A stretch of DNA of 64,000 nt from Tetradesmus obliquus (Eukaryota; Chlorophyta; Chlorophyceae; Sphaeropleales; Scenedesmaceae). This document shows, piece after piece, positions 7,198 to 57,475 of the stretch (positions are counted from its first letter, which is position 1; each line of letters opens with the position of its first letter). A program made the translations under genes and the position numbers. The notes below the pieces were generated by a model. It was not told the DNA's origin, searched no databases, and was given only the letters and a program-made list of their open reading frames with translations. The DNA is taken from contig CP126193.1 of the NCBI GenBank assembly GCA_030272155.1, forward strand, positions 2,108,001 through 2,172,000. The letters are read 5' to 3'.

Positions 7198-7506
7198 GCT
7201 GGCCAAGCTGGGCCGCGGCAAGCAGCAGCAGCAGCAGCAGCATGCTGATCCTGACAGCGACGATGGAGCAGCAGCAGCAGCATCTCAAGACGCGCGCTCT
7301 GACGACAATGACAGCTATGACGACGCTTATGACGACTGTGTGGTTGGTGGGGGCAGCGCGGCTGCAGCAGCCAGCAAGTTCATGCAAGCCAGCAACAGCA
7401 AGAAAGCCCGCAGGAAAGCCCGCCAGGCTGCAGCAGTAGCACATGCAGTCAGTGGAGCAGCACCAGGCAGCACTGGCAGCACAGGTAGTGCTGGAAAAGC
7501 ACGCCA

Positions 7507-7540
<34 letters not shown>

Positions 7541-10500
7541 CCTGCAGGGCCGGAGGATGAAGGGGATACTGTTGCTGGCCCCAGCAGCACAGAGGAGCGC
7601 AAGCATGAGCGCAAGCAGCAGCACGCCAAGGCGGCGGCGGCTGCAGCAGCTGGCACACCATCTGGGGTTGGTGCGGCTGGCGCCAGCAGCAGCAGCAGCA
7701 GCGGTGGTGGTGGCATTGCTGATGGTGTGATGACTGAAGAGGAGCAGCAGCTGCTGAAGCATGCACTGACGCAAATCAGCGAGCTGAAGCAGATTGCTCC
7801 ATTCACATTCGAGATCAAGCAGGGTAAGTGCTTGATGCGTTGTGATTGTTGTGTTCTGCACATCTCGTGGTGGTATGCCGGACAGCTATGGGCTAGGCGA
7901 GCAGTACTTTTGGTGCATCATCTGACAGCGGACGTGCATGCGATTGTGCTGCGCTGCCTGCTGCCACACACCATAAGTGCAGCTGCTCAATGCTGCCTTC
8001 AACGTGCTCAGCAGGCACAACCTGGCAATACCCTGCTGTGCAGGCAGCACGTGCGGCATGGCTGTGCCTGCTGCTGCATCCGGTGGTGCTGTCTCCAGCA
8101 AGCTTCACTATGCACTGCCTGCATCTCACCACACTTGCCTCATCACAAACCTTGCTGGCTAACCGCAGGCAGCACGCGCGGCATGGCTGTGCCTGCGCCC
8201 TTATTTGCCAGCCCGCTGCTTGCTGCCACACAACACAAGTACACACAAGTGCAGCTGCTCGTTGCGTCTTTTAAAGGTATGGTCATGCACTGCTTGCTTT
8301 AACTAACGCCTTTCCAATTGCGGTGCAGGCAGCACGCGCGGCATGGCTGTGCCTGCGCGCTTCTTTGCCAGCCCGCTGCTGCTGGACATGGTGGTGAGGG
8401 AGGCGCAGGCCTCGGGGGGTGGCGGCGGTGGCGGCTTCACCGCATCACTGCAGCAGCTGGCCAATGTGGCCACGCTGCCAGGCATCGTCGGTGAGCTTGT
8501 GAGCTTGCAATGTGTGATCAGAGTTTGGTCGTCAGGGAGGCGCAGGCCTCGGGGGGTGGCGGCGGTGGCGGCGGCTTCACCGCTTCGCTGCAGCAGCTGG
8601 CAAATGTGGCCACACTGCCAGGCATTGTGGGTGAGTTTGTGTAGTTTGGGCGTTTAGTGATGGCAGGGGTGGTGGCGGCGGCTTCACCGCGTCGCTGCAG
8701 CAGCTGGCCAACGTGGCCACACTGCCAGGCATTGTGGGTGAGTTTGTGTAGTTTGGGCGTTTAGTGATGGCAGGGGTGGCGGCGGCGGCTTCACCGCGTC
8801 GCTGCAGCAGCTGGCCAACGTGGCCACACTGCCAGGCATTGTGGGTGAGTTTGTGTAGTTTGGGCGTTTAGTGATGGCAGGGGTGGCGGCGGCGGCTTCA
8901 CCGCGTCGCTGCAGCAGCTGGCCAACGTGGCCACACTGCCAGGCATTGTGGGTGAGTTTGTGTAGTTTGGGCGTTTAGTGATGGCAGGGGTGGCGGCGGC
9001 GGCTTCACCGCGTCGCTGCAGCAGCTGGCCAACGTGGCCACACTGCCAGGCATTGTGGGTGAGGAACCTGGTGGATTTGGTGTTTGTTGGAAACAAGTGA
9101 GTCTGCGCGCTAGATAGGTTGAGGAGTGTTCCAGCTAGATAGGTTGAGGAGTGTTCCAGCTGCAAGAGCTGCAAGATGCATTGCCAGCATTGCAGCAATC
9201 CAAGTTCCCTTGTCACAGCACGACAGCAGAAGTGTCAACTCCGCCAGCGGCAGCTGCCGCTGCTGCTGCAGCGGCAGAGGCAGAGGCTTCACCGCCCCGC
9301 TGCAGCAGCAGCAGCCGGACATCGCGGCTGTGCTGGCAGGCATTGTGAGCGAGCTGAGCTTGGGGTCGAATGCATGTGACTCCCTTGGCCGCGCAAGTGC
9401 TCATCAGCGCAAGACTGCCAGGTCCGTGACAGATGCTGCGCTAGGGTCTCCTGGTACAGCGTTGTTTGAAGGTGTGTGCATGAGCTTTCAATGTATGAGA
9501 TTGTCCGTGTACATGCTGCTGCAGGTGCCTCAAGCGGCATGCCGGACCTGCACTCTGGCTACGGCTTTGCAAGTCTGTCAGCCATGCAAGTACTCAGCAG
9601 CCCCAAACACCCACCTGCATAACACATGCTGCTGCAGGTGCGTCAATCGGCATGCCTGACCTACACTCGGGTTATGGCTTTGCCATCGGCAACGTGTGTG
9701 CAGTGGACATGGAGGGTGGCAGCGGCGTGGTGTCACCGGGCGGTGTGGGCTTTGACATCAACTGCGGCGTCCGCCTGCTGCGCAGCAGCCTGAACATTGA
9801 GGACCTCTTTCCTGTGAGGGACAAGCTGGCTGATGTGCTGTTCAAAGGTGCGCAAATCATGCATTGAAGCGCTATTGAGGTGCGCAGATCATGCTATGAC
9901 GTGCAGCAGCTCCCAGGTGTGTGTTTAAGTTTGATTTCTGCAGCTGCAGGGACCCGACGGCCGCAACCATGTTGTCATTAATGACACAGGGAAGGCATGC
10001 TGCCTGGTTTAACATTTACAATCTTTCGGTTGGTGGAGTTGATGGCCAAGGATGCCTGGAATGGAATTGCTAGTGCACCAGTTTGCCAGCACTGAACCTG
10101 CAACCGCCCTGCGTGTGTGTGCTTTGCGCTGCCCTGCAGCTGTGCCTGTTGGTGTGGGCAGTGAGGGCAGCCTGCGGCTGGGGGCTGCTGACATGGACAA
10201 GCTGCTGACTGGAGGCATGGCCTGGCTGGAGGAGAAAGGGATGTGCTGGCCGGAGGACCGAGAAGTGACAGAGGAGCACGTGAGTGGGATAGGTCAGGTT
10301 GGGGCAGGCGTGTCCCCTCTACACAGCTGCAGCATTGCTGCATACCAACAGGGGCTGTGCTGGTGTGAAGACAGGGAGGTGACAGGGAGGTGACAGGGAG
10401 GTGACGGGGAGGTGACAGGGAGGTGACGGGGAGGTGACAGGGAGGTGACAGAGAAGCGTGTGAGTGGAACAGACCAGCTGGCAGTTTGGCTGCTGTATTT

Positions 10501-10987
10501 GCCGGTATGGGTCCATGTTTTAAGAATTGACTGCAGCAGGGTCTGTGCTGGCTTGAGGGCAGTGAGGTCATAGAGGAGCGCGTGAGGCTGAAGGGATGGC
10601 TGACTGCAACTGGACTGCTATGCATGCTAGCTCTGGGAGGGTGCCATGTTGTGCTAGATGATTGAGCCGCAGCGCTGTTCGCAGCAATGATGTTTGCAAG
10701 CAGCCTGTTACAGGGCACTGTAGCATGGCAGGGTTGTCGCATTGTTTAGGCGGTGACGTGCAGCGCTGTCTTGGTGATGACAAAAGCGGTACTGCTGCAC
10801 GGCTACTTCCGAGAGCTGCTTCTGCTGCTGGCCGCAGGGCTGCTTCCCTGGTGCTGATGCTTCCAAGGTCTCACCATGCGCCAAGGCGCGGGGCGCTGCG
10901 CAGTGCGGCACGCTGGGCTCGGGCAACCACTACGTGGAGGTGCAGGTGCGGCGGTGTGCGGCAGCAGCAGCAGCAGCAGCAGCACCG

Positions 10988-11023
<36 letters not shown>

Positions 11024-11123
11024 GGGTGGTGGGCAATATGGTGTAGCAAACAGAAGGTGGCACCCTGCTGAGGCGCACTGTATCTGCTGCTGCTATATGC
11101 CCTGCTGCCGCTGATGGTGACAA

Positions 11124-11163
<40 letters not shown>

Positions 11164-13184
11164 GTAATCAGGTTGTGGATGAGGTGTTTGACGCTGAGGC
11201 AGCGTCAGTGATGGGGCTGGGCAAGAAGGGGACGGTGTGCATCATGATACACAGCGGCTCAAGGGGCCTGGGTCACCAGGTGAGGGACACACTGGGAGCA
11301 GTGCGGGACACACCCACAGGGCAGCGGGACACACACATGTGCTGCCAGAGCGCTGCGTTATGCCACGATATGTCCTTTTGGGTATGCATGGCTGCAGGCA
11401 AAGCAGACTCGAGCTGACTGTGTAGCCACCTGATAACCAGCAGAGGCTAGAGGCGCATGACATGCTGCAACTGTTCAACACCCGAGTGCAGCCACGCATG
11501 CGCAAGCCTGGATCTGGCGGTGCACTGCCTGCTGCTTGCACAAAACCTAGCCAACTCGGGCCTGCAGAAGCCGGTGCTGTTGCTGCTACAATCAATGCAA
11601 GCACTGCTGTATGCATGCCTCACAGGTGTGCACGGACTACCTGCCTGCTGCCGAGACCGCAATGGCCCGGGCAGCTGTTCACAGCAGTAGCCTGTGCTCC
11701 ACTATGCATTAGATCTTGTGTGCGCTGCATGCTCACAGGTGTGCACAGACTACCTGTCAGCTGCCGACCGTGCCATGGCCAAGGCAGGGCTGCGCCTGGT
11801 GGACAGGCAGCTGGCAGCAGCACCGCTCAGCAGCAGCGAGGGCAGGCACTACCTGGCAGCCATGGCGGCAGCAGCAAACTTTGCGTTTGCCAACAGGTGT
11901 GGTGGCACTGCAAGTGTGCGGCGAACCTTGCAGGCAGCTAGCTGCCTGGCCACTGCTCTTCATGACAGTTGTGCGTGTGTATCTGCAAGTTGCAGCTAGC
12001 AGCGTTGCGGAGACGCACGCTGTGTTTGGTCTGCGCTGCGCTGTGGCCCTGTTCGTTCGGCTGCCCTCACCCTCTGCGGCCTGCTGCGCGCTGAAAGCTC
12101 AGCTGGCACTGCGTGCCAACAGCACTCTTCTTGCAGTGCCATTCACTGGGTTCACTCTGTTGTGGCTCGACCCTCTCCAGTACTGCCAGGACCCACATGT
12201 AACTGCCCTCTCACGCATGACGCATGCAATGCACCTGATGCTGTGCAGGTCTCTGATGGCGGCCCAGGTGCGTGGCGCCTTCCAGGAGGTGTTCAAGTCC
12301 AGCCCCGCCAAGCTGGGCCTGCACCAGGTCTACGACGTGAGCAGCAGCAGCAGCAGCAGCAAGCAAGCAAGCAAGCAAGCAAGCAGCCATGCCTGTGATG
12401 CAGCTTGTGTGAGGGCAGCTGGAGCTGTTGCAGGATGGAGCTTTTGAGCAACGTGCTGTTGGCTGAGCACGCTGCTGCAGTGGTGCAAGGGTTGCCTACG
12501 CTGCTAGCGTAGCGACAGTTCATGCTGCTGTTTATTTGTTATGCTTTGTGCCGTGTCATGTTTCGATTCCCTGCTGGCCACACATGCTTGCAGGTGAGCC
12601 ACAACATAGCCAAGAAGGAGCTGCACACCCTGCCAGACGGCAGCCAGCGGCAGCTGCTGGTGCACAGGTGCGCAATGCGCCAACCAGATCTTTTACTGCC
12701 AGTCTGTGCCTGAATTATGTTGCCAGTGTTATGTGGTGGCTGTGTCAGCTTGTCACATGCCCCCCTGCTTTGGGAGTGCAAGATAAACCTGGGTTGCCAG
12801 TCTATCACATTCACCTTGCCTGCTGCTGCTGCTGCTGCTGCAGGAAGGGCGCCACGCGCGCCTTCCCGCCAGGCCATGCCGAGCTGCCTGCTGCATACCG
12901 CGGCATAGGCCAGCCTGTGCTGATTGGCGGCTCCATGGGCACTGCCAGCTACGTCATGACAGGCACACAGGCAAGGCTGCAGCTTTGAGGCACTGTACAG
13001 TAGTTTGCAGAGTTGACTGAGAGTGGCCACTTGTGCTTGGGCTTCTGTTTTAGCTGCCGGTGTGGCGCAGTGTGGTGTGAAGCTGAGGTGCACAGATGTT
13101 CTGTTGGTTGAATCGTACGCGGCAGCTGATGCCGTGTCGAGTGTTTGCACTGCTTCTGGGGGAAATGCTGCAACACACACACTG

Positions 13185-13248
<64 letters not shown>

Positions 13249-14146
13249 GGCTTGCAGGGTGCCATGCAGCGCTCCTTTGGCAGCACCTGCCACGGCGCGG
13301 GCCGCGCCCTCAGCCACAGCGCAGCCATGCGCGGCCTGGACAGCAAGCAGGTGCGCTGCTATCTTCAAAACCTTGCATTCTGCGCTGTGTGCACGCAGCT
13401 GCTCGGGTGCAGCAGGTGCATGCATCCCAGAACTGCCTGCAGGTGCGCTGCACTTGACAGCAAGCTTGTTGCGGTGCTGCCATGCTGCCATGCTGTGCTG
13501 CGCTGCTGCGCTGCTGCAGGTGCTGTCTCAGCTGTCTCAGCAGGGCATTGCGCTGCGCATTGCCACCAAGAAGCTGCTGCGCTGCACTCAACAGCTGTCG
13601 TGCTGGTAAGCTGTCATCTTCATGTGCTGTGCTGCTGCAGGTGCTGTCTCAGCTGTCGCAGCAGGGCATTGCGCTGCGCATTGCCACCAAGAAGCTGGCG
13701 GCGGAGGAGGCGCCCGCCAGCTACAAGGACGTCAGCCAGGTGGGGTCCATGATGGCCTGCCTGCGGCTGGTCCCACCCCATGTGTGTGCACGCGCGCTCG
13801 AGCAGCGAGCCGTGAAATGTGATAGGCACAGCCGCGTCCTGGTCACCAGGTACATGCATGCATACCTCGAGTGTGTGCGCTGGCAGGGCAATGACGCCTC
13901 TTAATGCTGTATGACCCGCGCGCATGCTGCAGATGTGCAGCCGATGTGACGGCTGTCGCATGGAACTGCTGCCGGATTGCTGATTGCAAGCAGCAGAGTA
14001 ACTGGTAGGTTCGTGCTGTCCTGCTGCACAGCTGACATGCCTGCTGCACTTTGCCTGCCTGGCTGCAGGTGATTGACACCTGCCACGCGGTGGGCATCTC
14101 CAAGAAGTGTGTGCGCCTGCGGCCCGTGATTGTGGTCAAGGGCTGA
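7198..14146 (+). CDS. RTCB: RNA-splicing ligase RtcB (HSPC117 type)
   Basis: Joins tRNA halves and other RNAs bearing 2',3'-cyclic phosphate or 3'-phosphate ends to 5'-OH ends, using Mn2+ and GTP. Exons I can place: 7198-7823, 8329-8490, 9638-9847, 10140-10279, 10838-10945, 11172-11279, 11739-11896, 12249-12336, 12594-12667, 12844-12970, 13258-13350, 13641-13739, 14069-14146; phases agree throughout. Family motifs in order: [31 protein letters not shown] (metal-binding Cys), [28 protein letters not shown], and HGAGRALSH, which holds the guanylylated His. It ends [18 protein letters not shown]. All catalytic residues are present. An N-terminal extension of about 180 residues, rich in Gln, Ala, Ser and Asp with a basic patch (KKARRKARQ), precedes the core. 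The start codon lies upstream of 7198 and was not found. One intron is GC-AG (donor GCAAGG after 12970). Confidence 0.93.
8036..8220 (+). repeat. Two echoes of the RTCB exon start at 8329
   Basis: Copies at about 8040-8075 and 8166-8215 repeat the acceptor and first codons of exon 8329-8490. The second still reads [17 protein letters not shown] against [17 protein letters not shown] in the real exon. Both are direct copies in the preceding intron. Confidence 0.75.
8414..9062 (+). repeat. Tandem array of an RTCB exon 3' edge plus donor, ~107-bp period
   Basis: The last part of exon 8329-8490 ([19 protein letters not shown], then a GTGAG donor) is followed by five further direct copies, with donor positions near 8628, 8734, 8841, 8948 and 9058. 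The last four units are nearly identical and about 107 bp apart. Against the real exon, all the differences I see over the peptide [18 protein letters not shown] are synonymous. The copies lack an in-frame acceptor, so splicing in whole would break the frame. Confidence 0.9.
9523..9590 (+). repeat. Echo of the RTCB exon start at 9638
   Basis: A CAG acceptor followed by [16 protein letters not shown] duplicates the start of the real exon ([16 protein letters not shown]) about 115 bp upstream. Of the base differences I can align, six are synonymous and one changes Ser to Ile. Similarity stops after the GFA codons. Confidence 0.85.
10955..11024 (+). repeat. CAG run just after a splice donor
   Basis: An interrupted (CAG)n run of about 60 bp lies a few bases inside the RTCB intron that begins at 10946. 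The same intron ends with a CTG run at about 11129-11160 before the acceptor at 11171. The two ends are complementary and could pair in the pre-mRNA. Confidence 0.8.
11625..11690 (+). repeat. Echo of the RTCB exon start at 11739
   Basis: A CAG acceptor followed by [16 protein letters not shown] repeats the real exon start [16 protein letters not shown] about 113 bp upstream. Unlike most echoes here, this copy has several amino-acid changes and looks older. Confidence 0.8.
12143..12222 (+). mobile_element. Degenerate copy of dispersed repeat family 1 in an RTCB intron
   Basis: Contains shortened versions of both conserved ends of the family: CTGTTGTGGCTC near 12159 and CCAGGACCCACATGTAACT near 12187. 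The middle is almost entirely missing. No target-site duplication is evident. Confidence 0.65.
13183..13247 (+). repeat. (CTG)21-type microsatellite before a splice acceptor
   Basis: A pure CTG run of about 63 bp ends ten bases before the acceptor of RTCB exon 13258-13350. On the sense strand it supplies the pyrimidine-containing tract before the AG. It is the longest pure run in the window. Confidence 0.95.
13520..13610 (+). repeat. Echo of the RTCB exon start at 13641
   Basis: Repeats the acceptor and the first ~57 coding bases of exon 13641-13739 ([18 protein letters not shown]). Over those bases I see a single difference, which is synonymous. Downstream the copy diverges (LLRC instead of LAAEE). 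Confidence 0.88.
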
Positions 14147-15600: not shown

Positions 15601-15617
15601 TTTGGCCTCTAATCACC

Positions 15618-18015: not shown

Positions 18016-18531
18016 GTCCAACGCTATCGAGCAAGATTTGAGCAACAATTGATGTGGTAATGTCGTCAGTCAATGATAACGCTAGACCAGCTGAGGCTGT
18101 GCTGTTGCCGTGCTGCATATACGTGTACGCACAGAGGAACACCTCAACCCTGGTTCAGACGAATTCAAACCAACCATGATGTTCTGGTTCAGACGAAGTC
18201 AAACCAACCTCTTTTACTCCGTATCCCGGACGATCGTTTCCTTGCTTGTGTGCGATCCACGGCCATTGCGCATGCACGCATGGCGTGCAAGTACTGAGCT
18301 ACTGTCTGCAATGCCTGCGCCTCTACGCGCTCAAAGTTCAGCTGTAAAGGTAGGTCAAGCCACACATTGCTTGCAAATTGCAATGAGCCCTCGCGTGCCG
18401 TCACAGTCTGAGTTGGGCCAGAGTGTTTTGAGGCGAAACAGCTGGTGTAACACGAAAACTAACGCTGGCGTGCCACTCCCACTGCTGTGGGTGCTGCAGC
18501 TACGTACGCGCCTAAGCACCTGAACCAGCAC

Positions 18532-18592
18532 TCAGAAGGAGTCGTTGCGTGGGGGCAGGCCCACCCCTGCCACCTTTGCCAGCAGCAGCGCC
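18532..18592 (-). repeat. Second copy of the TPS terminal exon end, with stop
   Basis: Repeats the last residues of TPS (LLAKVAGVGLPPRNDSF, then stop TGA) about 110 bp after the first copy (LLAKMAGVGLPPRNDSF, stop TAA at 18645). The single residue change is Met to Val. A CTG run separates the two. It could act as an alternative 3' end only if an acceptor upstream is used. Confidence 0.9.
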
Positions 18593-18644: not shown

Positions 18645-20352
18645 TTAGAAGGAGTCGTTGCGCGGGGGCAGGCCCACCCCTGCCATCTTTGCCAGCAGCT
18701 CCAGCACCTCGTTGGTGTCGTTCACGTAGAACTTGGCCTTGCTGGGGCGCTGGCCCACCACGCACGCAAACACCTGGCAGCAGCAGCAGCAGCACATGTC
18801 AAGGGGCTGTGTTGGATCCACAAACACCTGGGTGCATGCAGGCTTTGCAGAATCTGTGTACCTAGCATTGCCCTGTAAGACAAGAGCATTTTGTCGAAGC
18901 CAAGCAGCAGCACATGGCTGAGGCAGAGCAGCGGCCCAATCATCCACCCACAATGCCGGGGTGCAGCAGACCACCACTCCCACAGCGCTGCCAAGCTACT
19001 GGTGACGCAAGCTGTGTCACTTCAAACCAACCAGGCCCCAGTGGGGCCACCCAGTGATCACCTTGAAAATAATCAGCCACCAAACTCACCTCTGCGGGGT
19101 GCCGGGGGGTATCCGCATACTGCTCAATGGCGGTGAACATGTCCTCATCAGACCTGTCATCACCAACAGCAAGCACAAAGTCAACCGCGCCGCCAGCCAA
19201 GCCCCGCGAGCTGCCGCCAGCAGCAGCATCCGCAGCCGCCTGCTGCTGCTGTTGCTGCTGCATCTGCTGCTGGTGCACCGGCTGCCGCGGTAGCGGCGGC
19301 GGCCCGCCCGCTGCTGCTGCTGCATGTGCCGCCTGCCACTGCTGCCCGCCTGCCGGCCCGCCCATCCCTAAGCTGTGTGCTGCAACTGCTGCAGCGCCAG
19401 CGCCCGGCGGCAGGCCGTCTAGGCTACCTGCTGCTGCTGCTGCTGCCGGCTCTGGTGCTGCTGCTGCTGGTGCGCTGGTGCTGCCAGGCATGCTTGGTGC
19501 CGCCTCTCCGGTGACCAGGGGGTCGCGCTTGCAGATGAGCTCCACCAGGCTGCCCTTGGAGATGCCCTGCAGCAGTTTGTAACAGTTGTACACAGTTTTG
19601 GATGCATTACAGCATGTACGCAGCGAGGGCAGATGAGCAGCGGGCTGTATGCTTGAATCCGAGGCTTGTTCTGCACGCAGTGGTGTTGCTGTTCACACAC
19701 GCAGCAGCTGAATATCATTTACATCATTAAACAGTTTTCTATACGGCGCTCGACAGCTTTCAGCATTCCACCAGCGCAACACGCATCACACAGCATGCAT
19801 CACACAGCATGCATCACACAGCAAGCATCACACAGCAAGCACCACAATGCAACTGTCTGCTGCCCATCCAGCGCAACACGCATCACACAGCATGCATCAC
19901 ACAGCAAGCATCACACAGCATGCATCACACAGCAAGCATCACACAGCATGCATCACACAGCAAGCATCACACAGCATGCATCACACAGCAAGCATCACAC
20001 AGCATGCATCACACAGCAAGCATCACACAGCATGCATCACACAGCAAGCATCACACAGCAAGCATCACACAGCATGCATCACACAGCAAGCATCACACAG
20101 CAAGCACCACAATGCAAGCACCACAATGCAACTGTCTGCTGCCCATCCAGCGCCGTGCAACTGCAGCTTGGCCTCCACAGTGAGACACATGTACAGACTG
20201 ATGCAAAGTATGAACAAATCCTGAATCAGAACATGACAGCAGGCCCACCTGCGGCTTTGCCTCCACGATGGTGTTGCCGCTGATGACCTCGATGGGCTTG
20301 TTGCTCAGCACGTCCTCCAGGTGGTCCAGCAGCTCCTTGGCCTGCAGGGGGA

Positions 20353-20384
<32 letters not shown>

Positions 20385-20938
20385 AACAGGCACCATCAGG
20401 TTCGATGAAGGTGCCAGCACGTCCTCCAGGTGGTCCAGCAGCTCCTTGGCCTGTTGAGAGGGGAGGCAGCAGCAGCAGCAGCAGCAGTAGCAGTAGCAGC
20501 AACGCAAAGAGGAACAGGTGTCAAGTCTAACGTTCCAATGCAGTTTTGGCGCTGTGCACTTGTGATCCACAGGCGCAGTACGCGTACTAGGCTACCTCAA
20601 GCAATATGTTTCGGCACTCAATCCATTCCCGAGGCACTGAAGGCAACCCAGATGGTGTTTCGTAGCAGCACATCATATGCTGCCGCAGGCCGCACCTGCC
20701 AGTTGCCAAAGTCCGGGTCACCGTCGCCATAGTGCCACACCAGCACACTAAATTAGATGCGCCAGTCCAGCGGAATTGAACATGAAGCTTCTGCGTTCAA
20801 CCCAAATGACCTCAATGCAATATGGAAGCCGCACCTGCCAGTTGCCGAAGTCAGGGTCAGCGTCGCCGTAGTGCCACACCAGCGCTGATGCCTTCACCTC
20901 GATGTGGCTGCCGTCAGTGCACTCGCAGTACTGCAGGC

Positions 20939-20971
<33 letters not shown>

Positions 20972-23900
20972 GAAGCAAATATGCCCAAACACTTTTTGGT
21001 AGCAGAGGTTGAGTAACACAATGCCCAGCCGAGCATGGTGAGCCATCACGCACCACCGGCAAGAGAAAAACACAGAGCCAAGGCAACACCTGCTTGAGGA
21101 TGGGCAGCACCGTTGCCTGCCAACACTGGGCAGCCATCTGCACATGTTCGTCTGCAACTGGCCAGAAACACCACGTTCATCAGTGCAACCGCATGATGCC
21201 AGAAAATACACAGACACACCAAAACCGCACCAAAACACCGTACATCAGAAGGGCATCATACACCGCACCTGCTTGAGGATGGGCAGCACCATGGCCTGCC
21301 AGGAGTGGTCGGCCAGGGGGAAGCGGCTGTGCCAGCGGCGGCGCCACGGCGGCCGGATGAAGAAGCCGTGCTCAGCCGCCAGGCCCACGCCAGGCTGCGG
21401 CAGAACAGAAAGAAGAACAAAGCAGGCACACAGCAGGTTTAAAGAGTGATGACAACATGAGAGACGCACGGATGAAGAAGCCGTGCTCAGCTGCCAGACC
21501 CACGCCAGGCTGCGGCAACAACACAAGAAGGGCAGCAGCAGTGCGGCAGTTGAGAGAGATGCACGAATGCATGCCAGGCGCGCAGATGAAGAGTGCGCTC
21601 GGCTGCGGCAGCAGTTGGTGCTCAGCAACAAACCACCACCAGCCAGAAGCACGCCTCAATAAACAGCCCAACAAGCCCCCTCCGGCACCACTTCCCCTCC
21701 CCAAACCAAATCAAAAAGCACAACCCACACCAACACTCACCATGCCCTCAAATCATCCTCTCAGCTCCTGCTGGCTGCGCCAACCACACAGCCCAACACA
21801 CAGCCCAACTCCCACCTCCCCACTTCACATCTGCACAGCAAAGCCCTCTCAAGCGGCACTCACCACGCCCTCGAACCATCCTCCCAGGTCCTGCTGGCTG
21901 CGCCCGCTGATGACCAACAACCCAACACACAGCCCAAGTCCCACCTCCTCCAAGCAGCTGAGCTTCAGACTCACCACGCCCTTAAACCAGCCACACGTGT
22001 GGCCCCGACAGAAAATACCCACCTCCCAACCTCCCCTTCGCCAAACCACAAAACCCCAGCCGCACGCCGCACTCACCACGCCCTCGAACCATCCTCCCAG
22101 CTCCTGCTGGCTGTGCCGAACCAAACAGCCAAAACCACAGCCCAACTCCCCGCCTGCACCAAGCAGCAAAGCCCTCTTAACCCGCACTCACCACGCCCTC
22201 AAACCATCCGCCCAGCTCCTGCTGGCTGCGCCCGCTGATGACCCACACCTCGTTGCAGGGGTCGGCCGTGAGCCCGCCCAGCACCGCCAGCACGCTCTCA
22301 GGGGGGGCCGCGGATATGTTGCGGTGCGGGATGAGCGTGCCGTCGTAGTCCAGCAGCAGCAGGCGCCGCGTGGAGCTGCGGGCATGGCGGCACAGAGCAG
22401 CGGGTAGATGTGAGGCCATCGCAGCAGCATGTGATGAGAAGAACAGCAGGGCGCCAGTACAGGGCAGCAGCAGCACGGCAGCAGCAAAGCGGCGACTGGG
22501 GGTTGAGAACAGCAAACCGTGGAGCTGGACGCAGATGGTGTGCGGCAGGCCGGCAGGGCGGGATGAAACAGCACAGCTGTGCTCAGCAAAAAAACAGCAG
22601 GGGTAGGCCATGGGATGTGCATGCTGGCGCAAACTAGCCCGGCAGGCAGACGCGCTTTCCATTCTAAACAATGTGCAAAACATAAGCACCGCAGTAAGAC
22701 GTCTCTGGATATAACATGAGATTTGGTGCTCAAGGGTGTGCAGTGCGTTTACGGTGCTCACTCTCCTTTTCTGGTCTCAGACCTGTGTTCAACCTGTTGT
22801 GGCTCATACCTGCGGCTTATGTGCCACAACGTGTTGGCACGTTTTGGCACGTTCGTGCCGGGGCGTGGTTATGTCACGTGTGTGTGTGTGTGTGGGGGGG
22901 GGGGGGGGGCGCGGACGTAAACGGCACAGGGCAGCTCGGTGAAGTGCAGACGAGTTCGATTCCTGGGGTAAACGCTTTTCCGGGCGTGTCGCTGTAAGCC
23001 GGGATTGCGCGCGCCTGATGCGGTGAACGTGTTGAATAAGAAGTAATTGGCGTATAGCCGGTGTCTGGTGGCACGGACTTGGTTTTCTGAAGCTGCACTG
23101 GTATGTCTGTGCCGTGGGTAGATTGTGCGACACGTAACGTGTCTGGCGTGCGCAGTTGTTGGTTATAAAGTGGTGTGAATCGATAATGCAAGCAAATGTG
23201 GCCGTCGGAAGGCGGACGCAGCAGTCACTTGACGGTGCCAGGACCCACATGTAACTATCCTCTTTCATAAGCAGAAAAGCTCAGCAACACACTCCAGGCA
23301 TGCTGTGACGGCTTTGCATGCCCGGGTTGCACCTGACACAAACAGCCGTACATTTGCCGCTGTGCACCTTGACAAGATGTCAAGCATGCTGCCACAAGCG
23401 CACAGCGGCAATGTGTGGCCAGCTGCTTGAATGTGTAGCCCCAGAGGACTACTTGTGTCAGCATAATGTGTTTTGTTCAAAACTTACGTCTACGAATTTG
23501 TCCAGGGGTGAATGACTCGGGGTTGCGCGGGGTGGGTCAACCGCGAGTAAGTGAGCCCGGGCGGCTGCTGCCGTTGCTGTGCGGTGCTTTGTCCGCTGCC
23601 AGGCACCACGGGGTGAGGGGCTGGAGCAAGGAAGCACCGCGCTGAAGCTTTGTCATGCAGCTACAGCAGAAATAGCCAAGTCGATCAAACTACTGGCATG
23701 CTACGGGCATGCAAATATATACAAACACACACCACTGCGTATCAGATTTGCGTCCAGCGCAACCAGCCGGCAGGTGTCCAGGCCCAGACCCAGCCACCGA
23801 TCACACCGGTGTTACACAACATCACATGATAACAAAGTAACACACCTGCGGTAAGCCGAAATGGTGGTCGGCTCCTCCAGCTTCCTGAAATTTGCGTCCA

Positions 23901-29900: not shown

Positions 29901-30754
29901 CTGCTGCCAGATCACCAGGCTGCGCCCTACCCCAGCCTCACCCCCGTACAACTATGTAGCTGTTACCATACATCTGTGCCCTGTTGCGCCCTGCTGTTGC
30001 GCCCTGCCCCAGCCTCACCCTTATAGTACTTGTCCCGCACGTCTGGTGCGATGAAGACTGGCGCGCAGTTGTGCTGCTGCTTCAGCTGCAGGCACACCTC
30101 CTGCAGCCGCCACCACCAGCAGCAGCAGCAGCAGCAGCAGCAACAGCACAGCACGGCAGCCATAACGTGAGCCTCAGCACTGAACAAACAGCACACCCAT
30201 GCCGCACTGGGCAGACCTCAGCATGACAAAGACCAGCTACTGCTCTAAACATACTGCAGCAACTGCAACAGCAGCTACTTTCACAGGACGGGCCTGGACC
30301 TCCTGCTCATAATGTCCATGTTCGCGACTGCTATTGCTCAGCACACTGCAGCATGATCAGCAGCTGCTTTTCTTCAAATTTGCCTAGGTCTGCTGTCTTC
30401 CCCCACCCGCACCTCCTGCTCCATGACGTTCACGTCCACTACTACTGCTCAACACACTGAGATTTTGACAGCAGGTATGTCTGCGCTGCCTGGCTGCCTT
30501 ACCTCCTGCTCCATGACGTCCACGTCCACTGAGAGTGAGCCCACATAGATGACCTCAAACTCATCAGGAATGCCCTCCTGCAACAGGCATAGAAAGAGGG
30601 TGATGAGGCAGGATGGGTCAAGTTTATGACGAGTGGGTAACCGGGTGTGGCCCAGTGGGTGAGTGGGTGGGTGGAGCAGCGCTTGTAATTGTGATGAGTG
30701 GTGCTCCCTCAGCTCAGCTAGCTTGTGCATGGCTGATGTAGCAGGAGCCGCACA

Positions 30755-30792
<38 letters not shown>

Positions 30793-37668: not shown

Positions 37669-37720
<52 letters not shown>

Positions 37721-42941: not shown

Positions 42942-42981
<40 letters not shown>

Positions 42982-44479: not shown

Positions 44480-45383
44480 CCGTCCTCGTCAGCACACTGT
44501 TATCACAGCAGCAGGCAGCAGGGCGTGTTCTGTGGCTTAGCGTGGACAAAGATGGTGAGGATCATACACTGTGAAGCTGATTAGCTACTTTGACTGCTCG
44601 TAAAAGCTGGCAATAGTGAATGCACGTCAGCAGCACCCCTAACGCATGTGACTTGTCATAAGCCAACCAACTGACAGGATGGCTTATATTTTCTCTGCCA
44701 GTGCGTGCAGTATGTTTTCCAAGATATCATAATTTTTGTACTCACGTGTGCCGGCGCATAATCAAGTGGCAGGTTGCTCGCACGGACCAAGAAAGCCTTC
44801 CTGCAGCTGCGTAGTAGCAGGTGATCAGGGCTACCACATATCAAGGTTTCAACTTGATCGAAACGACTGCCCTGTTTGACCGAACACCCTGCTTTCGGGA
44901 GTAGTGACGCAGGAGCAGGAGCTCGGCTACGCGATGCAGGTGGGCTGTTGATGGGTTGTCCCTATTCGATCTCCAAACTCGTGGTGTTTGTACTGAGCTG
45001 TTGTTTCATACAAGTGCATGCTGCCTACGTGTCAGCTTCAATGACCTGTTTCTGACGTCCGCACCACGCAACAGCAGCACTGCTGGCTGTCTGTCCAGTG
45101 GCAGGCATAGCCTTATCGGTCCATCATATCGCATAACATGGCTCAACAGCGGTCACAGGCCACACCCATGTGACAACAGCAGCTGAAAGTCATGTGGGCA
45201 TATGCTGAAAGCTGCAGCCAGGGTTTGCAGCTGCAGCCACCTTCATTGCTACCAGCAGCACCGCACTCACTCTCCTGCAAGCGCCCACCAACCATTTCCA
45301 ACCTCACCTTACCTGTCTTGAATTGTCTGCACATCACTGAATCCTGTAAACACCAACGACAACAGCAGCAGCAGGATGTGCAG
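44480..45383. promoter_or_regulatory. Divergent region between PCD gene and SRPBCC gene
   Basis: Should hold the PCD promoter and the first exon(s) of the SRPBCC gene. A plus-strand frame ending TQEQELGYAMQ at a GTGGGC donor (about 44900-44940) is a possible exon but has no in-frame Met. Confidence 0.35.
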
Positions 45384-48983: not shown

Positions 48984-49110
48984 TCACTCTGCGGCCTCCT
49001 CGTCCCCAGCATCATCGCCATCTCCCTCATCAGCATCGCCAGCAGCACCTGCTGCCGCCCCGCCGCCTGCTGCCTTGTAGTCTGCCATGCAACCAGCAAC
49101 ACTTGCAGGC
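48984..49110 (-). repeat. Second copy of the SSRP1 terminal exon end, with stop
   Basis: Encodes [20 protein letters not shown] and then [14 protein letters not shown] and a stop, duplicating the SSRP1 C-terminus (stop at 49169) about 185 bp further downstream. One visible residue difference is Glu to Ala. Like the TPS case, it is an echo of a last exon placed after the stop codon. Confidence 0.9.
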
Positions 49111-49168
49111 GGCAGCACGGCGCATTCAAACCAAACTTGACTTGCAGTGCAGCAGCACACTCGATGCT

Positions 49169-52100
49169 TCACTCTGCGGCCTCCTCATCCCCAGCATCAT
49201 CGCCATCACCCTCATCAGCATCGCCAGCAGCACCTTCTGCCGCGCCGCCGCCTGCTGCCTTGTAGTCTGCCATGGCGGCAGCGTAGCGCTCCTTGTCCTT
49301 GGCTGCCTGCGCCTCGTAGGGCGCCCTGTCTTCTGCTGAGAGCTTCTTCCACTCCTCACCCAGCAGCTTGCCCACCTGCAGCAGCAGAAGTGCCATCAAA
49401 AGGTAAAGAGGTTCAGCAACGGTGAATAAGCACTTTACGGTGCCCTGTCCTCAGCCGACAGCTGCTTCCACTCCCTCGCACACCAGCTTGCCAACCCGCT
49501 ACGACACGCAACAAGTAAATCAACCACAGCAGGTTTGGCCAAAGTGCCCCGGATGAGCTGTGTAAAAGCCAGATGAGTTGTTTGAGAGCAACATGACAAC
49601 CAAAGCCAGGCACAGCGAGCCAACCGCCAGCTGTGCAGCAGCACGCAGCACCCAAACCCCCTAATGCCCCAGCACCGCACCTGCCCGAAGCGGATGCCCC
49701 GGTTCTCCGACTCAAGTCGGAGTTGATATGCTGAACACCTACCGAGTGCTGACAACATGAGCACACCAGACACAGCAACGCCAGCAGGCACCACAGCAAG
49801 CATTACAGCAACCGCCAGCTGATACAACGCCGCACCTGCCCGAAGGGGATGCCCGGGTTCTCCGTCTTGATGCGCTCCCTGTTGCTGTTGGAGAAGAACA
49901 TGAAGCCCGACAGCGCCTTCTTGGGCGCGTTGGGGTCCTTCTTCTTGCGGGGCTTGCGCGCCTTCTTGCCGTCACCCACTGCTGGTGGGGGTGATGTCGT
50001 CGTGGTGGTCAAGAGTTTTCCGCAGCAAGCAGAGGAAGCAAGCATGGCAAGGTCAGGGAGGTGCTGTGCGTGCGCTGGTGAAAGGGAACCAGTGTTGCAA
50101 TGCAGGCTCTCAAAGATTCTAAAAGGCTGTGCTGTCGAGTGGGCGACCGACATTCCGGCAGCTAGTGGGAGTGCAGTGCAGCCTCCCAATCACAGTTGCT
50201 GTACTGAGGCGTTACTAACGCATGCAACTGGTGCACACAGGTCGGCTCACCCTCGGTGCCCTCTCCAGCCTCGCCGTCTGCTGCTGCTGGCTTCTCAGCC
50301 TTCTCCTTCTTCTCCTTCTTGGGCTTCTTTTGCTGCAGCAGCCACCCACGGCAATGTAGCGCAGGTGTTGCTGAAGAGATGACAACACTCGCTGTGAAAC
50401 ACAGATGCACATCTGCTACCAAACCGTCACAGCACAAGACACCGCCCAACATGACTGTCGCTGCGCTGCGTAATGAAGCACTGTTTCAGCTGCTGACACA
50501 AGCAAAGCAACCCAACCACATGGCAGCTAACCAGCCTGCACCAATCAACACCCTGCCTGCCTCACCTTTGGCGGCTTGGCTGCTGCTGCTGCGTCGCCGT
50601 CTGCTGCATCGCCGTCTGCCTTGCGCTTCTTCTTGTTGCCCATGACTGCTGTCACATCTATGCCCTCCTCATCAACCATCTCAGCATCGCTGCTGGCGTC
50701 ATCATCACTGCAGGCAAGCAGGCAACCACGGCAGGCCAGCATGACAAGGGAAAGGTGTGCGTTATCACATCACAGCCACAAAGACAATGCACAGCAGCTG
50801 CAGTTTCACCCCGTGGCGTAGCAAGGAAGCATGTTGGCCACCACCAAACTCTTGGTTTGCATTTGCCAAAGACAGCCACAGCATTCGAATTGCAGACAGG
50901 CGACCGCATACACACATAGACACGCCAAAGCAGCCCAGCTGCAGTGCCAGCCTAGCCCAGCCACCCCCCCACCAGGCACCCAGGTCCCGCGGCTGCCGCC
51001 GCCGGGGCTTGTAGCAAACTCCCCTTCAGCAAACCCCAGCCTGCTCAGTAAGGCATGTGCCCCATGTGTATGTATAATAAGCATTGCTGAGCCAGCCGCC
51101 GCCCGCCGCACCTGCCGGCGTTCTCCTCGTCCAGTGAACCGCCGCTGCTGGCGCTCATGTCCTCGCCGCCCGCGTCAAAGTCCTCGTCCTCGTCCTCCTC
51201 GTCATCATCTGCAGCAGCAGCGGCAGCAGCAGCAGCAGCAACACCAGCCATGACCAGTGTGCAGTCATGGGATGACTGTGCGAAACCGGCCCAGTCTACG
51301 AGACAGCCAGCAAAACAACCGAGCACCCCAGCATGCGCGCACAGTGTCAGTCAACGCAGGAGCTGAACCGCCTTTGTGCACGACGCTACGCCCGCGCTGC
51401 CAGCCAAATCCAGTAATCAGCCAGCACATTGCTACTCCAGTAACCAGCCAGCACATGAAACAGCATGAGGCATGCATGCCATTACGCCAGGCAGTGGTAC
51501 AATTTGTCTTGGTTGATTAGCACGCTCGCCTGCCTCTGCACACAACAACTCCACCAAGCAGCCAGCACACTACACAGCTTCAGGCATGTCAAGCACACCA
51601 GCCAGCCGCACATATGCCAGCACACTACATAGCCTGAGGCGTGCTAGCAGACCAACCAGCCAGCCAGGCGGCAGCAGCGGCAGCAGCACTCACCGGCCTC
51701 TGCGCGCGCCGCGCGCACGCCCGCGTCCAGGTCGTCTCCCAGGTCGATGCCCACGCCTGGCCCGCGCGGGCCGTGACGGGCCTCCGCCAGGTTCTCAATC
51801 TTGATCTTGCGCGCGTTGATGAACGCAAAGAGCGGCTCCCACTCGCTGCGCTGGATGTTGCGGAACTGGTAATCCTGCAAGGCGGGATGCAGGCATGCTG
51901 ACGTTGGTTCTTGCAAAAGCAGCGGAGTCGCCGTCGCCATCGTTGTGCCACACTGTGCATGTAATATTAGCCCATCCACCAACGTCGCTCAGCCGTATGT
52001 CTTTCAACCATCACACATCATACACATTTTCAACTACACCAGGAGGGGTTGCAGTGCAGTCCACACAGCACCCTGCTTGCTGCTTGCCTTCGCAGCAGTG

Positions 52101-54228
52101 TTGACAGCACGTGTCTTAACACCAGGCTCACCATGTTGTTGGAGCGCTGCTTGATGAGCAGGTCAAAGGTGCGCACGCTGCTGCTGATGACGCCGCCGCC
52201 CTGGCGCTGGAACTCCACCGACTCGATGTCGCTGTGGTTGATGCACATGGGCGGCTTGTGCACGTAGAAGAAGGCCTTGTCCAGGGGGTACAGGAAGCCA
52301 TCGTCGGCCTTGTAGCTGCAGCGGATGGCGCAGCCGTCGCCTGTGACAAGGTTTATATACAAGGGTGAGGCAGTCATAGGGACAGTGAGCATGGCGATAC
52401 GCGTGACAACGTGTTGGCTGCATCAGCTAATTGTGGCCGCAGTCGCCTGCAGCAGTACACAGACACAGCGCTGCCATCATCAACGTGCAGCTGCAGACTG
52501 GCCTGTATGTGTTCACCCTGGTCAGCAACACATGCATGCCCAGGTCATATGCCGCTCGTAGTCGGTGTGTAAAGCCTAATGTGCAGCAGCAGCAGCCGCA
52601 GTGCAGCGCAGAGCAAAGAAACGCACCTGCGTGGTTGGTGTACGTCTCTGTCTTGGCGCGGGTAATCTTGGCTGCAGACAGCCCCCGCAGCGTGTGCGCG
52701 AACACGGTGTGCACCGGGCCGTTCATGGTGCGCTGCAGCTTGTTGCCACACTGCAGCATGATAGATCAAGAGGCAGCCAGGCGGGCCACGTGTAACATCA
52801 GCAAGAGCAGTAGCAAGTGGCTCAAGGCGATTGACAGCAGCTGCACGCCAGCTGGTGCAGCAGCGGCGCAGCTCACATGTTGTTCCTGCTGTGCAAGCGG
52901 CGTGTCGCTCACGTCGTAAATCTGGAATAGCAGCAAACATCAAACCCAACCACCGCCACTCCAATGCTGTACCTTCTCATCGTCTGTGTCTTCCCCCCAT
53001 AAATCATGCTGCGCCAGTAGCCATGCAGCAGCTGTCAGCCGCTAAGCAACAGCAGCTACGCAGCTTATGCAGCTGACGCAGCAGCACCGCGGCTCACCTT
53101 CTCGTTCTTCTGCGCGAGCGCCTCATCGCTCATGTCGAGCTCCAGCGACATCTCCTCGTCATTGTTGAACTGGCACAGCAGGTACGAGTAGTAGGTCTGG
53201 CCCTTGCGTATGGGCGGGTCCAGCCCGATGACCACCAACGTGTGGGGGGTGGAGGATTTGGGCAGGATGAAGAGCCGGGAGATGGAGGTGTAGCGGATCT
53301 TGAAGTCTTGCGTCTGCAGGTGTCATGTTGCAGCAACATACATATACAGGGAGTTACAGTCACACCGCAGGGAAGCTGGTTGTGGTGTAGCGCATCTTGA
53401 AGTCCTACGCCTGCGGGGGCGGCGGCACACACACACATGCAGTGTTTAAATTGTTTTGGCCCTTGCGGATGGGCGGGGCCAGCCTGATGACCACCAGTGT
53501 GTGTGGGGTGGAGGACTTGGGCAGGATGAAGAGCCGGCTGATGGAGGTGTAGCGGATCTTGAAGTCTTGCGTCTGCAAGCGCGCGCAAACAGCATGTGTT
53601 TGCAAGGGGAAGATAGCCGGATTCGAGCAGTTTGGGGGCTGAAACGTGTGCGCCACAGCAGCAGCCAGTAGCTGCTGAGGCGGGCAGCTGGTTGCCGTGC
53701 AACCGGGCGGCGGCGCTGACCCCTGCGATCTTGCATATCAGTGGAAGCAGTAACACAGCAATCCTGCAAGCTGCACCCAAGCTGCATCCTGCCTGCTCAG
53801 CTCAGCTCAACACGCACTGCAGCAGACCACAGCAGGAGAGCCACAGCCAGATGCACACAAGTACAACTGCACCAGCAGCACGCGTCGCCAGCTAGCCAGA
53901 GCCGCAGCGCAGCACGCCGAACAAGCACAGCCAACAGCCAGAGTCTACAACAAAGCCAGGAAGACGGCCACACCTGTCCAGAAAGCTTGTGGAAGCTGCC
54001 GTGCATCCAACGGCAAAGCCTAACAGCATAATCAACATATCAATTGTACCAGCAAGACAGCAGCAGCCGCACCTGTCCTGACAGCTTGAGGAAGCTGCCG
54101 TGCATCTCCACAGTGAAGCGGCCGCGCGGCGCGATGACAGCGACGTCAGTGAAGTCTGCGATGCTGTCGTCGCTGGTGGCCACGCCGGCATCAGTGTGCT
54201 GCAGCAGCGCATCCACCAGCGCCTGCAT

Positions 54229-54269
<41 letters not shown>

Positions 54270-57200
54270 CACGGTGCGGTGCGACACGATGACATGATCG
54301 AGGGTGCATGGCACAATATGAGAGGCCTGGCTCGAGCTTGGAGTTCATAGGGCAACACTGCTGCGTGCTGCTGTCCAGTGGACTAGTCCTGCAAGCAGCT
54401 GCACTGCGTTGTGCAGCACCAGCACTCGCATTAAACATAATGATATCAATGTGGCAAAATGCCTGCCCGCCCACGCACCTTGGCTGCGGGGATGGGGACG
54501 CCGTTGTCGTCGGTGGTGCCGCCCCAGGCCTCGTTAACAGCTGGCACATGGAAGGCCATCTCTACCAGCGTGTCCTCCCTATCATCGCGTGTGGTGTCAT
54601 CCACATGGAACTCCAGCAGCACCTCGTCCTGCAAGCAGCAAGCAGACAGCAGCGCGTTTATGTCATGACAGGTTATCAGGCGGCGACAGTGTTTGAGCGT
54701 GTGGTGTCATCCACATGGAACTCCAGCAGCACCTCGTCCTGCAAGCAGCAAGCAACAAGACGTGAAGCATGTATCTGATGCATCAGGCCATAAGCGTGTC
54801 CTGCCTAGCACCACGTGAGTGTGGTGCAAATGACTGCAGCAGCACTTCGTCCTGCAAGCAGCAAGCAGCCAACAGCGCGTTTGAAGTCAAAGCCCATAGC
54901 AAGGTCGACTATGTTTGAGCGCGTGGTGTCATCCACGTGAAACTCCAGCAGCAACTCGTCCTGCAAGCACAGGAACATGTCAGACAATAGTTTTAGTTCT
55001 GGCGCAGCTGCACACTGCCAGCGTCCTTCCCAGTGCGCCGCACCAGCCAATAATCCAGGCTGCGATGTATTATGAAGAGCTGCGACGCTTTGGCTGCTGC
55101 GACTAGCTCACTGTCAGCAACAGCAACGCCTGCTTCACTTCCCCCAATGCCTGCCACAACAAGCACTGATGCCTAGGTCAAGACGGCCGGCAGCCCCAAT
55201 GCCAGAGCATGCACCAATCCTGTGCCTGTTCTGCTAGCCCATGTACGTGCCAGCTGCTGCTGCATGCGGCACCGCATCACCACGCTCCACCACGCTCCAA
55301 CAGCAGCAGCTCGCCGCACCAACACCCTCCTCTCCTCGCACCCACCTTGGTCTGCTGCGCCTGGCTCACTTCCGGCAGCGGCAGCTCAAACATGACCTTG
55401 CTGTCCACGCTGTACACCAGGCTGCTGGCGTTCAGCTCCACCTCGCCCCAGTTGCGGCCGAAGATGGCCAGCTCCTGCGGCTTGATCGCCTGCTTCAGGC
55501 TGTCCTTGCACAGGGCTGACAGCGCATCAAGGTCCTGCAAGCAGCCAACAGCATGCCGTGCAGATTTGATTCCGTAAGGACGTCCACAAAGACCAGGGAC
55601 AGCCTGAAGTGCGAAGGTCCTGCAAGCATGCGCGCCTCTTAGCTCAGGCTGCCCCTGCAGAGCGCTGACATCGGTCGAGGGCCTCCAATGTAATCACACA
55701 TTTGCAATCCCTCCCTGGCCCTGGCCCAGGGCCGGCACCTTGTCTTTAAAGCCCAGAAAGTTGAAGGGTGCATCCGCTGCATCCAAAGGCCCGCTGCACA
55801 CTGGACATTCTTGTGCTCCGTGCCTGATATTCTTCACTGTCTGTGCTCACCTTGTCCTTTGAGCCGAGGCAGTTGATGGTGGCCCGCCTGCAACCCTAGC
55901 CCACTGCACATGAGAAGCCCCCGGTCCTTGCCACACTACATCAACAACTGAAACCATACTATTGCTTGCCCGCACCTTGTCCTTGAAGCCCAGGAAGTTG
56001 ATGGTGGGTCCGTCAGCACGCCGCACGCCCAGCAGGCAGCCGCGCGGCTGGCCCAGCCGCGTCCACACCAGCCCGCTGATGTCTGCGGGAAGAATGCGTT
56101 CGACAGACACAGAAGTTTGCAGGACATAGCCGTTACAACCATAGGCGTGCGGGAGGCAGGCATGCATGTGGCGGCCAATGACTGCTGGCACGCTAGCTGC
56201 GTCCACACCAGCCTGCTGACGTCTGCAGGGACGCATGCGTTCAGCCGACACAGGCATATGCAGGACAATATGTCGACAACAACATATGACAAGCAGACAG
56301 GCATTTGAAAACCAGACCAGCATGTGGCGGCTAATGAGTGCCGGAACCTCCAGCCGCGTACACACCAGCCTGCTGATAACTGCAGACATCAGGCCACAGA
56401 GGCTTATTATGCAACAGGCAGGCAGGCATGCAGCTGCACATGGAAGCACACAGGCAGGAAGACGCAGTGAGTGCTGGCAGGTGCAGGTAGCACGTGCAAC
56501 TTGCAGTGAGCCATATGAAGTCGCTGAACAGCGCCCCTGATGCTGCTGCTGCTACTGTTGCTGTTTGCACCATGCACTGGCCCTGCGTGTGCTGCTGCTG
56601 CTGCTGTGAATGCATGCTGCATGCAGTTGCAGCTGCCTGCTGCTGTGCGCTGCAATGACAATGCACCGTTGCTGCAAGTTTGCTGGCCTCCTGCAGCAGA
56701 GCCTCACACGCTGTGCGCAACCCGACTTGAAGCAAAAGGATAACAGCTTGCAGGTTTGGTTGGCTAAGCCGGGTGCAGTCAAGTACGGAACTGCTGGCAT
56801 GCCTTATGCAGCTGCTATGCATCTGCCAGACGGCCACATCAACAGCCCACACTTGCTGTGCTGTCCCAACCGTACTATTGCTGTTTATAAATACCGTTAT
56901 GAAAGCATGCACTCAACACTTTGTCAGCTGCTTTTGCGTATGGCAGCTATTTGTCCATGCCCATACGCTGCTGCTGCCTATCATGTGTTTCTTGAATAGC
57001 TGCCACACACAACTGCCAGACACCACAGTGGTTGGTGCTTGTCCTGCGCATTGCGGCTGCTGGATGAGCTTTTTTTCCTGCACCAAATACAACTGCACCA
57101 CATGCTGCAATGCACCACACAGGCAGCAACTTGCTACTACGCGTCTGCTGCATGTTGCCACTGCCAGCAGCAGCAATGTGAGCGCATGTGCTTACCTTCT

Positions 57201-57475
57201 TTTCTAACATCGACCACCCTACCCTGCCCATGCTCCCCTGCCCGGCGCCATACAAAGCCAGCAGGACCGACTTTCAGCGTCCCAGTCGTCTGCAAAGTAG
57301 GCATCACAAGACAGCGCACCCAGACGCATGAGCAAAGAGCCCAGCAGTACACATGCAGTGCTCTGAGCGCATACACACAGCATGCAGCTGCTGCCAGTGC
57401 AGCCTGCTGCCATGCCACCCTCACCACTGCGCCTCTGCTTCCCAACGAAATGCTGGGGTATGTTTGATCAGCCAT
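49169..57475 (-). CDS. SSRP1: FACT complex subunit SSRP1 (HMG-box histone chaperone)
   Basis: Nuclear histone chaperone that, with SPT16, loosens and rebuilds nucleosomes during transcription and replication. Fifteen exons with matching phases total 713 residues: 57475-57425, 57289-57196, 56082-55976, 55534-55346, 54628-54479, 54222-54073, 53313-53098, 52750-52627, 52340-52132, 51874-51694, 51208-51112, 50707-50566, 50332-50251, 49978-49836 and 49375-49169. Order of domains: N-terminal PH-like domain ([29 protein letters not shown]), structure-specific recognition domain ([28 protein letters not shown]), tandem PH/Rtt106-like domain ([35 protein letters not shown]), acidic stretch ([12 protein letters not shown]), Lys-rich region, and an HMG box ([34 protein letters not shown]) with an acidic tail. 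All expected parts are present. Confidence 0.96.
49436..49720 (-). repeat. Echoes of SSRP1 HMG-box exons
   Basis: About 49438-49495 repeats part of the last exon ([12 protein letters not shown]). About 49676-49720 repeats the 3' edge of exon 49978-49836 ([10 protein letters not shown] against [10 protein letters not shown]) with its donor. Both lie in the intron between the two HMG-box exons. Confidence 0.85.
53380..53573 (-). repeat. Two echoes of SSRP1 exon 7 5' edge
   Basis: A ~120-bp copy starting at 53573 reads [20 protein letters not shown] and continues to PPIRKGQ. Against the exon at 53313, about seven codon differences are synonymous and two change residues (Gly to Arg, Asp to Ala). 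A much shorter copy ([11 protein letters not shown]) begins near 53412. Each is preceded by a CAG-type acceptor. Confidence 0.9.
54228..54270. repeat. (CAG)14 microsatellite before an SSRP1 acceptor
   Basis: A pure CAG run on the plus strand, hence CTG on the gene's sense strand, ends about six bases before the acceptor of exon 54222-54073. Confidence 0.95.
54700..54965 (-). repeat. Echoes of SSRP1 exon 5 5' edge
   Basis: The segment [14 protein letters not shown] after its acceptor (exon start 54628) recurs at about 54740-54700 and 54962-54915 ([16 protein letters not shown]), with a fragment near 54852. All are direct copies in the upstream intron. Confidence 0.9.
55735..56360 (-). repeat. 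Echoes of SSRP1 exon 3 edges
   Basis: The exon's 3' edge (INFLGFKDK plus donor, real at 55976) recurs near 55850-55880 and 55735-55765. Its 5' edge ([13 protein letters not shown], real at 56082) recurs near 56190-56225 ([11 protein letters not shown]) and 56345-56380 ([12 protein letters not shown]). The 5' echoes are more diverged at the protein level than those in TPS. Confidence 0.85.

Follow-up and report, generated by a model that had tools for sequence, protein, structure and literature searches.

Direct partial copies of exon edges, here termed echoes, are real and widespread in the genome of the alga Tetradesmus obliquus (104.66 Mb, 17 contigs), in which approximately one in six strong exon edges is flanked by an oriented copy. 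This proportion is two in five in the window, that is, the whole stretch of 64,000 nucleotides analyzed here (contig C3, positions 2108001–2172000), and the public T. obliquus proteins OEZ86_002502, 002503, and 002510 are located on the same contig. It is considered moderately probable that these copies are the remains of tandem duplications of approximately 90–260 bp across a junction or a stop codon, which would be masked by splicing and would lengthen the introns. The lengthening of introns without transposons is seldom visible in the sequence, and the echoes of T. obliquus show one way in which it may come about. Within one genome, and between strains, it would be possible to count how often splice-masked duplications arise, how large they are, and what becomes of them.

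Position, orientation, and abundance of the echoes

The introns were defined by spliced re-alignment of the annotated SSRP1, RTCB, and TPS proteins to the DNA, which yielded a set of 48 (Table 1). The TPS protein P0241 was aligned over 935 of its 947 amino acids; the stretch used ended at position 19000, and the gene continues below it. In the draft gene models, the splice consensus is CAG/GTG at the donors and TGCAG/G at the acceptors.

When the search was anchored at the true junctions of 47 introns (SSRP1 intron 15 was left out), with a score threshold of at least 17, it recovered 27 acceptor-edge and 22 donor-edge echoes, 49 in all, against the 0.06 and 0.04 expected per set when the same edges are compared with other introns. 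These echoes occur in the intron next to the copied edge (27 and 22), and the neighboring introns rarely contain any (0, 2, 1, and 0). They are distributed over 28 intron sides, several of them forming local arrays, and the nearest echo on each side stands 90–258 nt from the true edge (median 122 nt), with 27 of the 28 falling within 90–250 nt. No nearest echo was found on these sides at 45–89 nt, a range that was included in the search.

In a comparison that was not anchored, 46 of 51 exon-to-intron BLAST pairs extend to the junction. The AG or GT/GC dinucleotide is retained in 26 of the 28 nearest echoes, which is a weak excess over the approximately 22 expected from their mean identity. The copy comprises an exon edge and the splice site belonging to it; it is directly oriented and lies beside the original, as in a tandem duplication that spans a junction. 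Copying of a whole exon with both of its splice sites was not observed, the exon sequence past the copied part being matched after the echo in only three of the 49 cases and unmatched in 46. The echoes differ from their exon by 4–31% in 46 of the 49 cases, and an assembly error is unlikely for this reason.

Self-comparison of the DNA recovered 70 near direct pairs (less than 1 kb apart) in seven pieces of the window and 107 in 20 loci sampled elsewhere, and not one near inverted pair (less than 1 kb) in the window or these loci. The offsets of the pairs, in the window and the sampled loci together, peak at approximately 100–140 nt and rise again near 240 nt.

Table 1. Genes re-aligned to the window and the copies of exon edges in and beside them (positions in the window; offsets in nt).
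Feature	Position	Strand	Details
RTCB (tRNA-splicing ligase) gene	6677..14143	+	15 exons, 14 introns; protein P0121 re-aligned, translation identical
TPS (trehalose-phosphate synthase/phosphatase) gene	19000..31968	-	20 exons as aligned, 19 introns; protein P0241 re-aligned
SSRP1 (FACT subunit) gene as annotated	48987..57475	-	16 exons, 15 introns; P0001 re-aligned, translation identical
RTCB intron 3, two acceptor echoes of exon start 8329	8044..8220	+	96% over 28 and 52 nt, offsets 285 and 160
RTCB intron 4, five donor echoes of exon end 8421-8490 (107-bp array)	8554..9058	+	87-89% to true edge, 93-100% mutual
RTCB intron 4, acceptor echo of 9638-9683	9525..9570	+	85%, offset 113
RTCB intron 13, acceptor echo of 13641-13697	13520..13576	+	98%, offset 121; 1 difference in 57 nt
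TPS post-stop copy of last coding segment 18644-18699	18531..18586	-	95%, offset 113
TPS intron 18, acceptor echo of 20306-20341	20415..20450	-	100% over 36 nt, offset 109
TPS intron 18, donor echo of 20835-20883	20696..20744	-	92%, offset 139
TPS intron 16, acceptor echo of 21354-21394	21469..21509	-	95%, offset 115
TPS intron 16, three donor echoes of exon end 22192	21741..22117	-	90-93%, offsets 451, 328, 115
TPS intron 15, donor echo of 23995-24089	23846..23940	-	93% over 95 nt, offset 149
TPS intron 12, four acceptor echoes of exon start 24957	25023..25443	-	95-96%, offsets 118, 240, 364, 486
TPS intron 10, five acceptor echoes of exon start 26543	26610..27145	-	74-95%, offsets 108-602
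SSRP1 3' end, post-stop copy, annotated as exon	48987..49081	-	96% over 103 nt, offset 185
SSRP1 intron 6, two acceptor echoes of exon start 53313	53384..53572	-	92% over 116 nt, offset 259; 85%, offset 97
SSRP1 intron 4, acceptor echoes of exon start 54628	54697..54960	-	100% over 42 nt, offset 110; 90%, offset 332

These results bear out an earlier note on the window, which had described the echoes as real, as keeping one exon edge with its splice site before losing similarity, and as lying some 100–250 bp from the exon. The copies that it reported just after stop codons are also found, at the ends of SSRP1 and TPS. The note had named six genes, of which RTCB, TPS, and SSRP1 hold on annotated models, and neither GH5 nor GNAT was confirmed by a Pfam search of the draft models. 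The other genes named are represented by self-alignment pairs only (295–351/488–543, 4370–4432/4566–4632, and an array at 40600–40937).

Beyond the window, 20 loci of 10 kb (L009–L028) were taken at fixed positions on seven contigs, rather than by random draw, and an echo was counted when it lay within 600 nt, on the intron side, of a strong exon edge (289 edges in total, from our own draft models). Echoes accompany 34 of the 201 strong edges in these loci, against a null of 6 in 603 around other exons, and 34 of the 88 in the window, against 4 in 264, although the genome-wide rates are rough, because of the fixed positions of the loci and the draft status of the models. At least one near direct pair occurs in 12 of the 20 loci. 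A paralog of TPS on contig C1 (two 3-kb loci) has near direct repeats of its own, none of them inverted. The same note had proposed a genome-wide process, rather than one specific to certain genes, and had held that a genome-wide count no higher than chance would speak against it; the count in the 20 loci, which is above the null, and the repeats of the TPS paralog support the proposal.

The echo load differs sharply between loci, with 13 of 23 edges accompanied by an echo in the dense L022 and L027, and none of 54 in L009, L012, L013, L018, L020, and L025, of which L013, L018, and L025 have other near direct pairs. At a candidate shared intron position in the TPS paralog (L002), the exon edges are seemingly shifted by a few nucleotides, and no conclusion is drawn from it. 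A genome-wide search with one echo-rich stretch recovered the stretch itself, one exon of the TPS paralog, and 17 short matches of 34–61 bases, which are judged to be of low complexity.

Exon and intron halves of the copied unit

In the ungapped register, identity on the intron side of the echoes is 0.54–0.60 at nucleotides 6–10 (0.60 vs. 0.32 in random site pairs at the acceptors, and 0.54 vs. 0.28 at the donors) and 0.27–0.48 from nucleotide 11 outward, random site pairs having an identity of 0.26–0.32 (0.26–0.29 beyond 10 nt). Similarity thus fades to little above that of random pairs, in line with the loss described previously. The share of echoes with intron-side homology varies with the test applied, from a minority to about half. 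Homology exceeds that of block shuffles in 27 of the 49 echoes when the splice motif is included and in 23 when 6 nt of the motif are omitted, and exceeds that of other introns in 19 (eight of the 28 nearest). Over the 40 nt next to the motif, 12 of the 49 intron halves beat 95% of the shuffles. Significant intron-side homology, relative to other introns, is absent from 20 of the 28 nearest echoes.

Given this homology, and given that the exon past the copied part is so rarely matched, the pattern in these cases is one of a breakpoint in the exon and another in the intron, as in a tandem duplication. The insertion of an unrelated spacer between exon and copy was also considered, and is weakened as an explanation by the homology of the spacer to the upstream intron in some of the cases.

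Complete tandem units across junctions are found in TPS intron 10 (248 bp) and in RTCB intron 4 (107 bp), the echoes of the former belonging to a tandem duplication that spans the acceptor. Four copies of the RTCB array keep their intron halves at 0.97–1.00, which indicates that intron halves can last, and the fifth shares the exon half (0.93–1.00) and not the intron half (0.53–0.55). Two echoes of TPS intron 10 that are copies of one another have an identity of 0.82 in the intron half and 0.97 in the exon half, a divergence that could equally mean a fast turnover of indels. In SSRP1 intron 4, where a decayed copy lies between the echoes at offsets of 110 and 332, the echo 110 nt upstream matches the exon at 42 of 42 positions and its sister echo at 38 of 42, which favors conversion or refreshing from the exon.

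In all 16 pairs with an exon-half identity of at least 0.93, the intron half reaches only 0.52–0.79 over 40 nt. These pairs appear to be young, and they argue against splice-masked tandem duplication in its simple form, because a young duplication of this type should keep both halves; the lower limit on the offset of the nearest echoes is a further point against it. Plain neutral decay is therefore insufficient to account for the drop in similarity at the junction, which needs either conversion or slippage from the exon, or a copying process that is limited to the exon edge.

The relation of the pairs to exons was compared in 197 partial and 34 complete tandem pairs, the latter derived from few arrays. 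Coding-like sequence makes up 0.34 of the partial pairs, 0.06 of the complete tandem pairs, and 0.07 of random segments, and the proportions that touch a draft exon are 0.80, 0.85, and 0.34, respectively. Among the partial pairs with an identity of at least 90%, 107 of 126 touch a draft exon. As the coding-like and the exon-touching measures disagree, a birth of the copies that is blind to exons is not claimed.

A tentative alternative, on balance an unlikely one, is that each echo is a short insertion copied from a template and ended at the junction from the outset. A strand switch during repair or replication, through microhomology at splice-like motifs (TGCAG, GTGCG), would lead from the intron to the true site some 110 nt away, from which 30–100 nt of exon would be copied before the strand switched back. 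Such a process would account for the fading of similarity approximately 10–15 nt from the junction, even where the exon half is 95–100% identical, for the raised similarity just past the consensus, as microhomology would give, and for the enrichment of partial pairs in exons (0.80 vs. 0.34 in random segments), but it does not predict the intron-side homology of 19 of the 49 echoes, nor the complete tandem units across junctions. That the alga possesses a form of copying specific to exon edges, which starts at the splice consensus, proceeds 30–100 nt into the exon, and is inserted some 110 nt away in the intron, is doubtful to a slightly greater degree. If this were so, the introns would be largely fossil exon edges, and the splice motifs would be mutational hot spots that lengthen the introns.

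Proposed duplication, drift, and the growth of introns

Under the preferred reading of splice-masked tandem duplication, duplications of some 90–260 bp would arise and, where they span a junction, would copy an exon edge, its splice site, and some of the intron. They would be tolerated because the spliceosome would take the outermost sites (the first donor and the last acceptor), so that the extra edge would be removed as intron and the mRNA would remain unchanged. Where the duplication crosses a stop codon, translation would end ahead of the extra copy. Each event would lengthen an intron or a 3' UTR, and the extra copy would subsequently drift neutrally. The exon half would stay recognizable through the selection on its partner, and probably also through repeated refreshing by conversion or slippage, with the intron half being lost. 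The post-stop copies of SSRP1 and TPS suggest that a duplication persists in any place where gene expression passes over the additional copy; at the 3' end of SSRP1, the upstream copy reads through to a stop of its own.

The drift of the echoes resembles that of neutral sequence. Over 391 codons of the 28 nearest echoes there are 51 synonymous and 65 nonsynonymous differences, a synonymous share of 0.44, and the share expected of a neutral copy that faces a constrained exon is 0.47, under assumed mutation weights. Constraint on the echoes at the protein level was considered on the basis of a synonymous excess of 120:76, which was obtained with redundant copies and is gone when a single nearest echo is taken per side (51:65).

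Introns with an echo have a median length of 558 nt (n = 21), against 287 nt in those without (n = 27; p = 2e-6), a difference that alone proves little, because longer introns hold more echoes. When the largest echo offset on each side is subtracted, the residual median is 245 nt, and this return to ordinary length is a stronger point in favor of growth. The echo spans occupy 6,715 of the 22,238 nt of intron.

The earlier note had invoked tandem duplication across splice sites as the source of the echoes, and as a route to both the gain and the growth of introns. As a source it is probable, given the intron-side homology described above, and is not the whole story; growth is supported by the lengths of the introns, and gain is not supported by their structure. 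The gain of introns in action, through exonic AGGT duplications, is highly improbable, even though the consensus sequences would allow exonic duplications to be spliced, as the signature of such gains (the start of the next exon at the start of the intron, or the end of the previous exon at its end, with an offset equal to intron length) is present in 0 of the 48 introns, a count that covers recognizable cases, old gains being invisible. Selection might also retain the echoes as alternative or poison exons or as decoy splice sites; this would be in keeping with the retained dinucleotides and with the use of one echo as a 24-nt exon in the NCBI model of TPS, but the synonymous share fits a neutral copy, and this explanation is improbable, if slightly less so than intron gain. 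Chance, low-complexity repeats, or assembly error can hardly be credited at all: the window is rich in CTG/GCA repeats, and yet the nulls drawn from other introns and exons are low, near inverted pairs are lacking in the window and the sampled loci, and the copies have mostly diverged.

Known systems and public gene models

Tandem (mutually exclusive) exon duplication also places local direct copies of exons in introns, and differs from the present case in that an echo keeps a single edge and stops short within the exon. The origin of new introns by tandem duplication is outlined in PMC3443670. In a case from potato, as summarized in PMC4974935, a duplication over the 3' side of an intron and the 5' side of the following exon gave rise to a new intron, with splice signals inherited from the parental junction. 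The extent of the duplication and the origin of the signals are alike in the two systems, whereas here the extra edge would be skipped, an existing intron would grow, and many junctions are involved. The AGGT tandem duplication model (Rogers 1989; Hellsten 2011; Gao & Lynch 2009), in the account given by PMC3443670 and PMC4974935, shares with the reading proposed here an internal tandem duplication of genes that is masked by splicing, but the duplication is of exon only, with an intron length equal to the offset, which fits none of the 48 introns. Introners, according to the outline in PMC9860276, likewise bring about mass intron change in one genome, but consist of one element copied into many genes, whereas each echo copies its own neighbor. 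By titles and the beginnings of abstracts, no description of mass junction-spanning duplication that lengthens existing introns was found in a search of open-access papers.

Of the three public gene models checked, two seem to include an echo among their exons, which points to the echoes as a source of annotation error. The NCBI model of TPS (P0241) uses a 24-nt echo at 28050–28073, which results in the motif VGIKIMPT being present twice, and the Scenedesmus homolog (P0242) has it once. The donor echo of TPS intron 9, one of the 28 intron sides, copies this annotated 24-nt exon, itself an echo. The NCBI model of SSRP1 (P0001) ends in the post-stop copy, annotated as an extra exon.

Long CTG/GCA trinucleotide runs occur all over the window (e.g., 30754–31078 and 37671–37719), some of them within annotated coding sequence, as in RTCB exon 2. 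The Pfam search also matched pterin-4a-carbinolamine dehydratase and polyketide cyclase/lipid transport in the draft genes at approximately 42662–43983 and 44131–46489. It further matched PAP/fibrillin in the draft gene at 145–6779, a model that is probably a fusion with the neighboring gene.
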